NCBI GenBank assembly: GCA_027063755.1
Contig: JAMORD010000128.1
Span: forward strand, 1-5,728
Direction: 5' to 3'
Length of the DNA stretch: 5,728 bases
Source: a bacterium
Lineage (GTDB): Bacteria; Coprothermobacterota; Coprothermobacteria; Coprothermobacterales; JAADFF01
Position 1 is the first letter of the stretch, and each line of letters opens with the position of its first letter. Positions 64 to 5,728 of this stretch are shown here, piece after piece. The position numbers and the translations under genes are program-made. Under the pieces are notes generated by a model, which did no database searches, had not been told where the DNA came from, and saw only the letters and a program-made list of their open reading frames with translations.

Positions 64-1341
64 TTATCCTCCAATAATCTCTGCCCCCTCTGCCAATATG
101 TATGGCATGGGGCCTGTGTCAAGCATCTGAATATCTTTGCTGATATCCACGATACCGTTTAGTATATCCAGCACGGAGAATGACACCATGGTATCTGTAA
201 TGCCATATGCTATTTCGCCGTTTTCTATAAAGAAACTGTTTTTGGCAACACCAGATACCATGCCAGTCTGATAGTTGATATTGCCAGAAAACCTCTCAAG
301 GAGTATGGCCCTGTCTATAGACTTTATCATGTCATCAAGCCTGCTTGTACTGTCTATCTTTAGGCAGTGGGGTGCTACCCCGGGCACAGAGGAGTAGCCA
401 CCACTGGCATGTCCTGTGTTAACCATGCCCAGATACTTAGATGCATATGCATTAAGGAAGAAGTTTTCTAGTGTTCCCTTGCTGATAATAGGGGTTAGCA
501 ATGTCGGTGTTCCCTCTCTGTCAAATGCCGTTGCGTAAGGGGAGCCGTCAACAAGTGGATTGTCTATAATTGTGAGTTTAGATGAGGCTATCTGTTTGCC
601 AATACTGTCTTTCCACATACTGGCATTTCTCACAACCCTTAGACCGCTGGCATGGTATGTGATAAAGTCTATGATTATGTCTTCTACAGCACGGGGAGAC
701 AGAAGAATGATTCCTTTATAGGAAGGTGCCTTCCTGGGATGTAGCGTCTTTACAAGTCTTCTGACAAATGCCCTTGTCTCATTCTTGACCCTGCTTATAA
801 AATTTTCATAGCCGACATCTTCAACAGAGATGTAGTCAAATGATGATACCTCATCGCCCTCTATGGCCATACCGGATATAACCATAGAAAATGCCGTGCG
901 TTTTTCTGAGACACTAACACCTTCTGTGTTTTCCACAGATATCTCTGTTTTCTCTATATCCACCATCAGTGAGTCTATGGATATACGGCTGTCTGTTTCT
1001 TGGGCAAGTTCCAGAAAGCCTTTGGCAAGATCTGCAGCTGTCTTGACCATATCTATCTTGTCTATGGTTTCGTCGTATATACCTGTAATGTCTGGATATC
1101 TCCCGGGACGCCCCATATCAAGAAATGGGTCTTTGGGCGATGTCTGTGCTATTTCTCTCGCCATCTGTGTTAGCTTTTCTATATCTGCACTGCCTATGGC
1201 CGATACAAATCCTTGCCTACTATTTTCTATAACCCTGACACCTGTTGCCTGAAAGTTGCCATATGATACTGTTTTTAGCTTGCCACTCTCTACAAAGGCA
1301 TGTGCCTTATCGTTATAGGCTGTGAATATTTCCCTCTTCAC
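64..1341 (-). CDS. tldE: TldE/PmbA subunit of the TldD/TldE metalloprotease
   Basis: This 425-residue protein is the partner subunit of the TldD/TldE peptidase, a cytoplasmic heterodimer known in E. coli for maturing microcin B17 and degrading CcdA and unfolded peptides. It shows family landmarks: an N-terminal region around residues 30-50 (TGVRVIEN...GFVSA), a C-terminal block with LTIIDNP (256-262), FDREGTPT (273-280), LLTPIISKGTLENF (281-294), NTGHASGG (308-315) and FSGNINYQTG (351-360), and a closing G-rich end. The segment aligned with the TldD metal helix reads LLSPRAVEDIII (213-224) and has no HExxxH. This is normal for TldE, which lacks the metal centre. Length is close to E. coli PmbA (about 450). 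The start is GTG at 1341, inside the tldD stop (GTGA overlap), preceded by AGGGGG nine bases upstream. The overlap suggests translational coupling and roughly equal subunit output. The natural substrate here is unknown. Confidence 0.93.
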   Translation of the reverse strand: MKREIFTAYNDKAHAFVESGKLKTVSYGNFQATGVRVIENSRQGFVSAIGSADIEKLTQMAREIAQTSPKDPFLDMGRPGRYPDITGIYDETIDKIDMVKTAADLAKGFLELAQETDSRISIDSLMVDIEKTEISVENTEGVSVSEKRTAFSMVISGMAIEGDEVSSFDYISVEDVGYENFISRVKNETRAFVRRLVKTLHPRKAPSYKGIILLSPRAVEDIIIDFITYHASGLRVVRNASMWKDSIGKQIASSKLTIIDNPLVDGSPYATAFDREGTPTLLTPIISKGTLENFFLNAYASKYLGMVNTGHASGGYSSVPGVAPHCLKIDSTSRLDDMIKSIDRAILLERFSGNINYQTGMVSGVAKNSFFIENGEIAYGITDTMVSFSVLDILNGIVDISKDIQMLDTGPMPYILAEGAEIIGG

Positions 1342-2726
1342 TGTGATCTACCCCCTATCTTCATGCGGGTTCTTATATGTGGTCCGCCACCATCAACTTT
1401 GGCAGGTTGGAATTTGCCACAGTATCCTGTGCCCATTTCCAGTTTTATGTCGTTGCCTACCATGTCTACATTGCTAAGCACCTCAAATGCCTGACCAGAG
1501 ATGGTGGCAGATTTAACAGGGTGGGCTATCTTGCCGTTTTTGATGCGATATGCCTCACCTACACCAAACATAAACTCGGCATTGGCATCAGCCTGACCAC
1601 CGCCAAATGCCGTTGTCATGAGATAGCCATCGTCTGTGGCCTCAATCATTGCCTGTAGCGTATCGTTGCCGGGCAGTATATATGTGTTTCGCATCCTCAC
1701 AATAGGCTCATCCATATATAGCCATGCCCTGCTGTTGCCTGTGTTGTCAAGTCCCAGCTTCTGGGATGTAATGCTGTCTGTCATATAACCTTTCAGTATG
1801 CCGTTTTCTATGATAACTGCCTCTTTGGCTTCGGAGCCCTCATCGTCAAAGGGTATCCAACCTGATGCATGGGGGGCAAAGTCTGGATGTGGGTGGTCTA
1901 CTAGTGTGATTTTCTCAGATGCCACTTTATGTCCCAATTTGCCCGCTGTAATGGAGCCAGATAGCACAAAGTCTGCCTCCACAGTATGTCCTATAGCCTC
2001 ATGAGATAGTAGTCCCACAAGCTCGGGGCCAAGTATAACGGTGGCCTCTCCGCTTTCCGGATAGGGTGCATGGAGATTCTGAAGAAGCACTTTGGCAACT
2101 TTATCTACCTTGCCATAGGGATCAAACGATAGCATGTCATCCCATCCACCTGTTATACCTATTCCCTCTGCGTATTCTTCCCTGTCTCCATCTTCTTCGG
2201 CCGATGCAAAGGCAATAAGCTCAAGGTTAGGGTATTTGGTATATGCCTGTGTGCCCTCGGTGTTTACTATCCACTTTTCATCAAGAAGCTCTGTATATCT
2301 CACAATAGATGAGATGATGCGGTTGTCTGTGTCTTTTAGTCTGTTGTCAAGTTCTAACATGAGATGAACCTTATCTTTTAGGGGCACTGTTTCTGCAGGT
2401 GTGATGACCTTTGGTGGGAAAAATTCTCCTATCAGGGGATGAATAAGAGGTTTGATGTTTTCATGTAGACCTATAACCTTAGCACCTGCCGTGGCTTTTT
2501 CAAGGGCTTCTTTCAGCCCCGATGGGGATATGTCTGATGTGTAGGCAAATCCCCATGCTCCGTCTACGTACACCCTAACCGATACCCCTATCTTTTCGTC
2601 AAACTTGTTTTCTGTGACAACCCCGTTTTCTACACGGATAACCCTGACTTGCCTGCGATGGAGTCTAACCTGCGTGTGATGGTCTGGATGCAAACCGTGT
2701 TTTAGCGTGTTAAAAATATCTTTCAT
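1338..2726 (-). CDS. tldD: TldD, metal-bearing subunit of the TldD/TldE protease
   Basis: TldD is the catalytic, zinc-carrying subunit of the TldD/TldE peptidase. From the start chosen here it has 462 residues; E. coli TldD is about 480. The metal motif HEAIGH is at residues 242-247 (codons near 1986-2003). The third ligand expected from the E. coli structure is Cys436 in GYCGK, so H242, H247 and C436 are predicted zinc ligands and E243 the catalytic glutamate. Other family blocks include DDEGSEAKEAVIIENGILKGYM (residues 294-315), NTGNSRAW and FGGGQADAN. The open frame extends to an ATG at 2750. I prefer the ATG at 2726 because AAGGGAGGG sits six bases upstream of it, and because a TATAAT at 2756-2751 would put the transcript start at about 2744, downstream of the 2750 codon. 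tldE follows with a four-base overlap. The catalytic set looks intact and an active enzyme is likely. Confidence 0.95.
   Translation of the reverse strand: MKDIFNTLKHGLHPDHHTQVRLHRRQVRVIRVENGVVTENKFDEKIGVSVRVYVDGAWGFAYTSDISPSGLKEALEKATAGAKVIGLHENIKPLIHPLIGEFFPPKVITPAETVPLKDKVHLMLELDNRLKDTDNRIISSIVRYTELLDEKWIVNTEGTQAYTKYPNLELIAFASAEEDGDREEYAEGIGITGGWDDMLSFDPYGKVDKVAKVLLQNLHAPYPESGEATVILGPELVGLLSHEAIGHTVEADFVLSGSITAGKLGHKVASEKITLVDHPHPDFAPHASGWIPFDDEGSEAKEAVIIENGILKGYMTDSITSQKLGLDNTGNSRAWLYMDEPIVRMRNTYILPGNDTLQAMIEATDDGYLMTTAFGGGQADANAEFMFGVGEAYRIKNGKIAHPVKSATISGQAFEVLSNVDMVGNDIKLEMGTGYCGKFQPAKVDGGGPHIRTRMKIGGRSQ
1351..1356 (-). promoter_or_regulatory. Ribosome binding site of tldE inside tldD
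   Basis: AGGGGG on the minus strand lies nine bases before the GTG start at 1341 and within the last codons of tldD. It supports the GTG as the true tldE start and the stop-start overlap as a coupling point. Confidence 0.6.
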
Positions 2727-2732
2727 GTTGTT

Positions 2733-2741
2733 CCCTCCCTT
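2733..2741 (-). promoter_or_regulatory. Ribosome binding site deciding the tldD start
   Basis: AAGGGAGGG on the minus strand lies six bases before the ATG at 2726. It falls inside the open frame that begins at the ATG at 2750, so it argues that the first eight residues of that longer frame are not translated. Confidence 0.8.
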
Positions 2742-2750
2742 CTGAGGCAT

Positions 2751-2800: not shown

Positions 2801-2810
2801 GAGGAGGTGA
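2801..2810 (+). promoter_or_regulatory. Ribosome binding site of the receptor gene
   Basis: GAGGAGGTGA is an almost complete match to the 16S anti-Shine-Dalgarno complement, with its AGGAGG core nine bases before GTG at 2817. An ATG overlaps its end at 2810 but is out of frame with the receptor and too close to be used, so the GTG is the supported start. Confidence 0.85.
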
Positions 2811-2816
2811 TGTCTT

Positions 2817-4898
2817 GTGCGTATTGGAAAGAATATTGTTATTTACCTGATTCTCTTTGGCTTGGCGATGTTAATATTTTACGGTATATGGGCTGCGGTG
2901 GATATCCACAAGTATTCACCTGATATTGTCCTTAATAGATGGTATACATTAGATGGTAAGGAGTTTCCATTATCCGGCAAACTGGTTAACAATAATGACT
3001 GGAAATCTATTCAGCTATATACGACATTTTCTGTGAGTAATGAAGGACTATACTATCTTGTTCTGCCCCGTATTGATGCCGGGGGAGGATATATAGTATA
3101 TATAGATGGCAAGGAGGTAGCCTCAAGAGAACTTGGTAAGTCTAAATATCTCAATCTGTGGCATAAAACAGAGGTGTATCCTGCTTATCTAACTGCCGGT
3201 GAGCACAAATTGGCGCTGAAACTCACATATGTTCATACATATGGTTTTTCAGCCACCCCACCATTTTTCTCTAAGAGCTCTTATAGTGCATTTGCCTTTA
3301 GAGATGTATTCAATTTTTGGAACGAATGGATATATGTAGCCAGTGGTTCTATTATGCTTATTATGGGATTTATCTTCCTCATGCTTGCAAAACTGACAGG
3401 TAGCCGTATGAAGAAATACTGGTTGCTTGGGAGTGCCTTTGTGGTGATGTCTCTGACGAGTTTTGACTATGTGGCTGTTAATATCCCCATAAACTACCTG
3501 TTGTTTAAGAAAATCGTTGTATATGCCATGCTTATAGGAGTGGGTTTGTATCTTGAGGCTATGATTTTATTTCTTAGAGACTTGAAAAGATGGGAAAGGA
3601 ATGTTTTTTACGGTCATTACATAGTCGCCACGCTTATTACCATATTTAGTCCAACACTTTTTATATATAAGACTCTTTACAATTACTACTATCTTGCACT
3701 AATACTTCTCTATGTATATGTACTTGTTGTATATGTCGTTAGTGCTGTGCATCGTATAGACCGCATTATTCTTGGTGGTCTGGCATTTCTTGGAGCTTCT
3801 TATGTACTTGCCATTCTTGATGTTGCCGGTATTATCACATTGCCTGTACTTGCCACATCTATGGGTCTTCTTGGGGCCTCTGTGCTCAGTAGTATTGCCC
3901 TTCTTGTGGATTTTGCCAATGTATATGCTGAAGCCCTTAGAGCAAGAGCTGAGTCTGAAGAGGCCCGCGAGCGCATACAGAGTATTCTTACTGAAGTTGA
4001 AAATGAGACGGTGTCCATTGAGGGTGTTATGAAAGGGCTTGAAAGTATTAGTGAAAAAGTTGCTATGGCATCTAAAGATATGGAGGAGGTTGCGGGCACA
4101 CTGGAAGAGAAAACAGATACTTTGTCCCATGCAGCATCCTCTATTGCCGACAATATTGACGGTATAAAGGCCGCTGCGGCATCACTTTCACAGAGTGCTT
4201 CAGAACTGGCAGCATTTTCACAAAAGATGCAACAAGAAGTTGCCTCAGATATAACCGAACTAGCCCGTGTTGTAGAGGTATTTGAACAAGTTGGTAAGCA
4301 GATGGAGGATATTAATACATTAACTTCAGAGTTTCAGCGCGTATCCGATAGTGTAGGGGTAATTGTAGATGAGATTACAGGTATTGCCGATAAGACAAAT
4401 CTTCTTGCCCTCAATGCCGCTATTGAGGCAGCCCGTGCCGGTGAAGCGGGTAGAGGTTTTGCCGTTGTGGCCGATGAGATAAGGAAGCTTGCCGAGATGT
4501 CTAAGTCATCGGCTGCCAAGATACAGGAGATTATGTCTGGTCTTGCACAGTTTGCTACAACTCTTGCAAACGATGTGCATAAAACAACTGATAATCTTAA
4601 AGAGGCTATTAAGGGAAGTCTATCTGTTTCTCAGGGACTTGAGGATACATCTGAAGATGTGAGGAGATTGGCAGCGATGTCAGATGATTTGGCCGCCGTA
4701 TCAGAAGAACTATCTGCATCTACTGTTGAGGTTGGTAGTTCTATGGAGAGGCTAACTCAGCTGACTGAACTGATAGATAATCTCGCTGGCAAGCTTTCCG
4801 ATATTGCCGAGGACCAACGTGAGCTATCCGATGGCCTTGTTAGTAGCGCAGAAAAACTTGGTGCCGACATTAATCATCTTAAAGGACTGTTATCTTAG
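2817..4898 (+). CDS. Seven-transmembrane methyl-accepting chemotaxis-type receptor
   Basis: This 693-residue membrane receptor should bind a ligand outside the cell and control a CheA/CheW array inside. Order of parts: a membrane anchor or uncleaved signal (about 7-28); an extracytoplasmic beta-rich domain (about 30-168) with [16 protein letters not shown] and a later [12 protein letters not shown], a pattern like jelly-roll sugar-binding folds; seven hydrophobic helices (about 171-193, 201-222, 227-253, 265-285, 289-311, 316-338, 342-367); a charged coiled coil (368-395); and an MCP signalling domain to the C-terminus. The MCP tip [20 protein letters not shown] (528-547) is canonical, centred on E543 with about 150 residues on each side. 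A site matching the methylation consensus lies at 626-635, with E630 and E631. Basic residues fall in the loops after helices 1, 3, 5 and 7, which places the C-terminus in the cytoplasm. There is no HAMP domain and no C-terminal NWETF-type CheR/CheB tether. Overall it resembles 7TMR-DISM receptors with an MCP output. The ligand is unknown. MCP identity is very firm; the DISM relation is inferred. Confidence 0.92.
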
Positions 4899-5015: not shown

Positions 5016-5023
5016 AAAGGAGG
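5016..5023 (+). promoter_or_regulatory. Ribosome binding site deciding the SLH start
   Basis: AAAGGAGG precedes two in-frame ATG codons, at 5026 and 5035. Only two bases separate it from the first and eleven from the second, so the second is the better start and gives a typical signal peptide beginning MRKYVV. The core GAGG (5020-5023) could pair with CCTC at 5011-5014 in a weak 4-bp hairpin. Confidence 0.75.
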
Positions 5024-5034
5024 AGATGTGCGAC

Positions 5035-5728
5035 ATGAGGAAGTATGTTGTTCTTCTCGTGGCCGTCGCCATTGCCCTGTCTGCAGTAGTTGCTGTTGTT
5101 CCTGTTAAGGCAGCAGGGTTTAGCGATGTGCCATCTAATTACTGGGCTTACAAGTACATTACAAGACTTGCCGATGAAGGCATAGTGACAGGTATGGGTG
5201 GGGGCAAATATGGCCCCGAAGAAAGCCTTACCCGTGCACAGATGGCTGTTATTGCCGTCAGACTTGCCGGTGTTAACCCCGACAAGTATAAAGGTGCAAA
5301 GGCCACATTCAAAGATGTGACAGATCCCAACAAGTGGTATTACAAGTGGGTCTATGCAGCTCTCAAGACAGGTATCGTAAAAGGTTATCCCGATGGTACC
5401 TTCAGGCCTGACAAGAAGGTTACCCGTGCTGAGCTTATCGTTATGGCAGAGCGTCTTTATAAGATCGTCAATGGTGTAGATCTTGAAAAGACTGTTCTTC
5501 CTGAGCTGAAGAAAAAGCCTTACTTCCCAGCTCTCCGTGCTTCTGACGAGCCCAAGTATCGTAAGCACTGGGCTGCTTACTATGCAACACTGGCTATTCT
5601 CCCACAGTATCAGCTCATCAACTGGCGTGAGCCTGGCCGTGTTATTGCCCTTGATGCTCCAGCAACCCGTGCAGAGATGGCTTACTCCATCTACAAGGTT
5701 AAGTATCCTGTAAAGATGGGTGGTACCC
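5035..5728 (+). CDS. S-layer or cell-surface protein with three SLH domains (partial, 3' end outside window)
   Basis: The first 231 codons of an exported protein are present, open to the right edge. A signal peptide covers residues 1-27: a basic start (RKY), a hydrophobic core of Val/Ala/Leu, and a likely cleavage after VKA or VKAA. Three SLH domains follow. The first (about 29-78) has FSDVPSNYWA and LTRAQM; the second (about 92-141) is the most canonical, with GYPDGTFRPD and VTRAEL; the third (about 164-220) is divergent, lacking the GYPDGTF-type loop but keeping ATRAEM. Three consecutive SLH domains normally bind pyruvylated secondary cell-wall polymer and anchor the protein to the wall. 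Whatever follows residue 231 (S-layer body, enzyme or adhesin) is not visible. Lysine is AAG in 19 of 24 codons, CGT dominates arginine and only one isoleucine is ATA, unlike the three upstream genes, which fits high expression. It has its own promoter and leader. It could be the main S-layer protein, but this is not proven. Confidence 0.93.
   Translation, partial: MRKYVVLLVAVAIALSAVVAVVPVKAAGFSDVPSNYWAYKYITRLADEGIVTGMGGGKYGPEESLTRAQMAVIAVRLAGVNPDKYKGAKATFKDVTDPNKWYYKWVYAALKTGIVKGYPDGTFRPDKKVTRAELIVMAERLYKIVNGVDLEKTVLPELKKKPYFPALRASDEPKYRKHWAAYYATLAILPQYQLINWREPGRVIALDAPATRAEMAYSIYKVKYPVKMGGT

Follow-up and report, generated by a model that had tools for sequence, protein, structure and literature searches.

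A chemoreceptor of a Dictyoglomota genome with a predicted divergent 7TMR-DISM module as its sensor

Classical chemoreceptors (MCPs) usually have two membrane helices, and in the sensory rhodopsin II/HtrII system a seven-helix (7TM) sensor that carries retinal drives an MCP made as a separate polypeptide. The 7TMR-DISM proteins reportedly received their name in a 2003 paper. A seven-helix module and an MCP module joined in one protein have been described in Myxococcus xanthus, where McpF (MXAN_2244) and McpM (MXAN_3453) were tabulated in 2014 as seven-TM proteins that combine "7TM diverse intracellular signalling" with an MCP domain (Table 1 of PMC3945109). Deletion of McpM altered S-motility, causing a defect; McpM-GFP formed peripheral membrane foci that were nearly immobile, and McpM interacted with CheW5b in a two-hybrid assay (PMC3945109). 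We found no separate class name for the 7TMR-DISM/MCP pair in our literature search.

Searching with the sensor of two such fusions (G172 and G025), we identified at least 20 distinct open reading frames, spread over 19 genomes from a single other phylum, that encode 7TMR-DISM and MCP in one frame; ten of these pass the curated Pfam cut-offs for both PF07695 and PF00015. The fusion is thus frequent in another phylum, among the closest 7TMR-DISM relatives. Loci ranked by PF07695 score carried mostly other outputs (an MCP output in 0 of 72, fused in 3 of 164), a misleading tally because that sample missed a weaker-scoring subgroup rich in fusions. Two candidates (L134 and L202) were rejected as fusions, as the MCP adjoins the 7TMR-DISM gene as a separate gene. 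Two of the ten fusions lie in tandem (L234, 574-5067), with nearly identical MCP halves and diverged sensors, and close to genes resembling CheR and a CheB/CheY-type receiver; the pattern suggests that the output half was recently duplicated or underwent gene conversion.

We analyzed a window of 5,728 nucleotides (the whole stretch of DNA under study) that contains a gene whose product is very probably a membrane chemoreceptor with a divergent 7TMR-DISM module as its sensor (Table 1). The initial annotation had regarded a chemotaxis output on such a scaffold as unusual, a view that does not survive the genomic precedents and the M. xanthus proteins tabulated earlier (PMC3945109). As these also rule out novelty of the fusion, the chemoreceptor is a divergent new example of an already known architecture.

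Table 1. Features of the window (positions within the 5,728 nucleotides)
Feature	Position	Strand	Basis or remark
PmbA/TldD-type peptidase genes (two, overlapping)	64-1341 and 1338-2750	-	upstream of the chemoreceptor gene
Shine-Dalgarno-like AGGAGGTGA	2802..2810	+	sequence, upstream of the GTG start
7TMR-DISM-like chemoreceptor gene	2817..4898	+	693 aa, GTG start, intact ORF
N-terminal helix, residues 7-25: membrane anchor or presumably uncleaved signal	2835..2891	+	hydropathy
Extracytoplasmic jelly-roll (galactose-binding-like) domain, residues 34-155	2916..3281	+	AlphaFold2, structural matches
Seven membrane helices, residues 172-367	3330..3917	+	hydropathy, AlphaFold2, sub-threshold PF07695, profile match
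Cytoplasmic MCP coiled-coil hairpin, residues 368-693	3918..4895	+	directly after TM8
PF00015 MCPsignal core, residues 490-650	4284..4766	+	Pfam
Conserved hairpin tip region	4392..4502	+	sequence comparison; presumably the CheA/CheW contact region, by general MCP knowledge
SLH-domain protein gene	5020-5728	+	downstream of the chemoreceptor gene

Hydropathy analysis of the encoded protein gave eight peaks (residues 7-25, 172-190, 203-221, 233-251, 269-287, 293-311, 322-340 and 349-367), with short loops that obey the positive-inside rule and a predicted topology in which the anchor is N-in, the domain is outside and the C-terminus is in. The AlphaFold2 model of the first 420 residues (window 2817-4076), built from an alignment with five family rows, contains a beta sandwich at residues ~42-152, in blocks mostly of pLDDT 71-93, and after it exactly seven helices at a pLDDT of ~50-60. 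When 15 external 7TMR-DISM rows were added to the alignment in a second run, the 7TM part reached a mean pLDDT of 84 (helices 156-194, 196-218, 227-252, 258-281, 285-312, 316-336 and 346-409), and the last helix ran unbroken into the MCP stalk. Hydropathy and AlphaFold2 therefore bear out the N-terminal anchor, the extracytoplasmic beta-rich domain and the seven hydrophobic helices after residue 168, with positive-inside loops, that the initial annotation had read from the sequence. Structure comparison of the model matched the jelly roll to the N-domain of a GH2 beta-glucuronidase (Z ~11), to CBM35 and to the RetS periplasmic domain; a PDB sequence search with the sensor returned no match. 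The top Foldseek match of the residue 1-420 model was human Wntless (WLS, 8tzs; E 2.8e-4), which has the same order of TM1, beta(-sandwich) domain and 7TM, but kinship was dropped given a TM of 0.30 and an rmsd of 14.6.

Of all Pfam families, PF07695 alone matches the sensor, in four of the five family rows, and its score falls below the gathering cut-off of 29 in both this protein (16.9 bits) and a paralog (28.4 bits). Because of these sub-threshold scores, we call the sensor a divergent relative of 7TMR-DISM and not a curated member. Against a profile of 181 external 7TMR-DISM segments, from which the family sensors had been left out, all three family sensors scored above all 903 controls (block-shuffled or reversed sequences). 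With hhalign, the sensor aligned to the 7TMR-DISM/MCP sensors of G172 and G025, which come from proteins above both Pfam cut-offs, at 96.6% and E 6e-10 over 351 columns that take in the jelly roll, the 7TM part and the junction; the match to a general 7TMR-DISM set was weaker (26% probability).

The low PF07695 score and the modest alignment to the general set would also fit a protein whose seven helices form an unrelated 7TM module, for example an opsin-like one, that merely resembles 7TMR-DISM, and the top VIA-align match is indeed sensory rhodopsin II (Z 14.2, rmsd 3.5, 192 residues). However, VIA-align itself treats a Z near 13 as usual for generic helical bundles, Foldseek with the 7TM part gave no match at E 0.001, and the resemblance of the fold to rhodopsins and GPCRs hardly exceeds what is common for helical bundles. 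A microbial rhodopsin was rejected, as the last membrane helix (residues 346-370) contains no lysine and hence no retinal Schiff base. Given that the alignment to the fused sensors extends from the jelly roll through the membrane part to the junction, and that shuffled controls were all outscored, we consider an unrelated module very improbable; judged by sequence comparison, the 7TM module belongs among the divergent relatives of 7TMR-DISM. The earlier description of a 7TMR-DISM-like module is upheld by the profile and RetS matches; in Pfam, PF07695 stays under its cut-off and DISMED1/2 are not among the families listed for the sensor.

The complete MCP hairpin of the initial annotation was recovered as well: the output half matches PF00015 MCPsignal at 123.3 bits (cut-off 34.6, E 1.2e-35), and it has an intact tip between two equal coiled-coil arms, with an arm length of 150 residues compared to 154 in the genome's other MCPs. 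The C-arm spans ~22 heptads, a hairpin type common to the classical MCPs of the host genome, and HAMP is not among the Pfam families shown for the chemoreceptor. If the architecture were homologous but its output no longer chemotactic, serving for example c-di-GMP signaling, the GGDEF genes beside the second paralog in both genomes and the location of the window gene outside a che operon would find an explanation. This reading is set against a tip typical of CheA-coupled MCPs, an arm length near that of the other host MCPs, and a genome that encodes CheA, CheW and FliG, and we regard it as remoter still than an unrelated membrane module.

The host belongs to a genus of Dictyoglomota of which two genomes are known, and the nearest record with a name comes from a Dictyoglomota MAG (L017, JAADFF010000079.1). 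Among the 9 genomes of the phylum, and likewise among 386 genomes sampled, the sensor occurs only in the two genomes of this genus. Each has two paralogs, ~37% identical in the sensor, of which one is intact and one is frame-shifted; the intact copies are the window gene and G001:C42, a gene of the same architecture in the sister genome. All segments of the chemoreceptor gene have a dN/dS of ~0.06-0.09 relative to the ortholog, indicating purifying selection, and this value, together with the intact paralog in the sister genome, argues that the architecture is real and no chance product. As the same dN/dS also holds in the broken copies, the frameshifts are either recent or assembly errors. 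In the copy G001:C57, the TM3 region carries a tandem duplication of 13 bp; G000:C30, set against its ortholog, is missing ~10 nt close to where TM8 meets the MCP part. The damage is reciprocal between the two species (L017 ~1897-1922 and L018 ~894), and the frame-shifted paralogs are recent pseudogenes or products of slippage or assembly error. In both species, two divergently transcribed GGDEF genes flank the second paralog (L018 2196-4999; L019 2319-5200).

The host genome encodes 14 MCP domains, CheA, two CheW, CheC, CheD and FliG, and contains a CheW-CheA-CheC-CheD-FliA cluster; its other MCPs that we examined have 0-2 hydrophobic helices. The chemoreceptor gene sits beside the peptidase and SLH genes, outside any che operon, and the genomic context therefore names no signal. 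As a link to carbohydrates has been made for the outer domains of other 7TMR-DISM proteins (PMC8544897, PMC6107284), we propose that the jelly-roll domain may bind a small molecule, a glycan or a partner protein, the cue probably being carbohydrate-like. Binding would shift the 7TM bundle, and TM8, continuous with the MCP helix and without HAMP, would convey this shift to the dimer's MCP four-helix bundle; the latter may in turn alter CheA activity through CheW and thereby flagellar behavior. Strict consensus methylation matches fall at residues 626-635 in the C-arm and 566-575 near the tip, with loose matches only in the N-arm; as the pattern gives one clear consensus site (626-635), we only infer adaptation, which would be of the CheC/CheD type.

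In the tree, the MCP domains of the other-phylum fusions cluster separately, and tests of a single origin of all fusions gave AU values of 0.117 and 0.45. We tentatively suggest, as a possibility somewhat short of even chances, that the Dictyoglomota fusion arose independently of the other-phylum fusions and of M. xanthus McpF/McpM, and that coupling of 7TM to MCP evolved more than once, the last membrane helix being spliced into the MCP bundle without HAMP. The chemoreceptor overturns nothing; it extends to a deep-branching thermophile lineage a little-studied architecture in which a 7TM sensor the size of a GPCR would drive CheA without a HAMP relay, and offers a usable system for studying the movement of an MCP hairpin by a 7TM bundle.

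Among the described systems, McpF and McpM resemble the chemoreceptor in their Pfam 7TM and MCP pair, seven TM, absence of a listed HAMP and size of ~730 aa, going by the published listing; they come from another phylum, and McpM acts in gliding and development, whereas the Dictyoglomota host has flagellar genes. The fusions of G172, G025, G409, G424, G446 and others (one other phylum) likewise encode MCPsignal in frame with a jelly roll and 7TMR-DISM_7TM, but PF07695 is above the cut-off in ten of them and their MCP domains group apart. RetS, LadS, NicD and RgsP share the order of an extracytoplasmic sugar-binding-like domain, 7TM and a cytoplasmic signaling module (PMC6107284, PMC8544897), yet their outputs are histidine kinase or GGDEF/EAL domains where the chemoreceptor has an MCP. 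The classical MCPs of the host genome are alike in hairpin type but have 0-2 membrane helices and no 7TM. In contrast to sensory rhodopsin II/HtrII, the chemoreceptor is one chain, without the retinal lysine.
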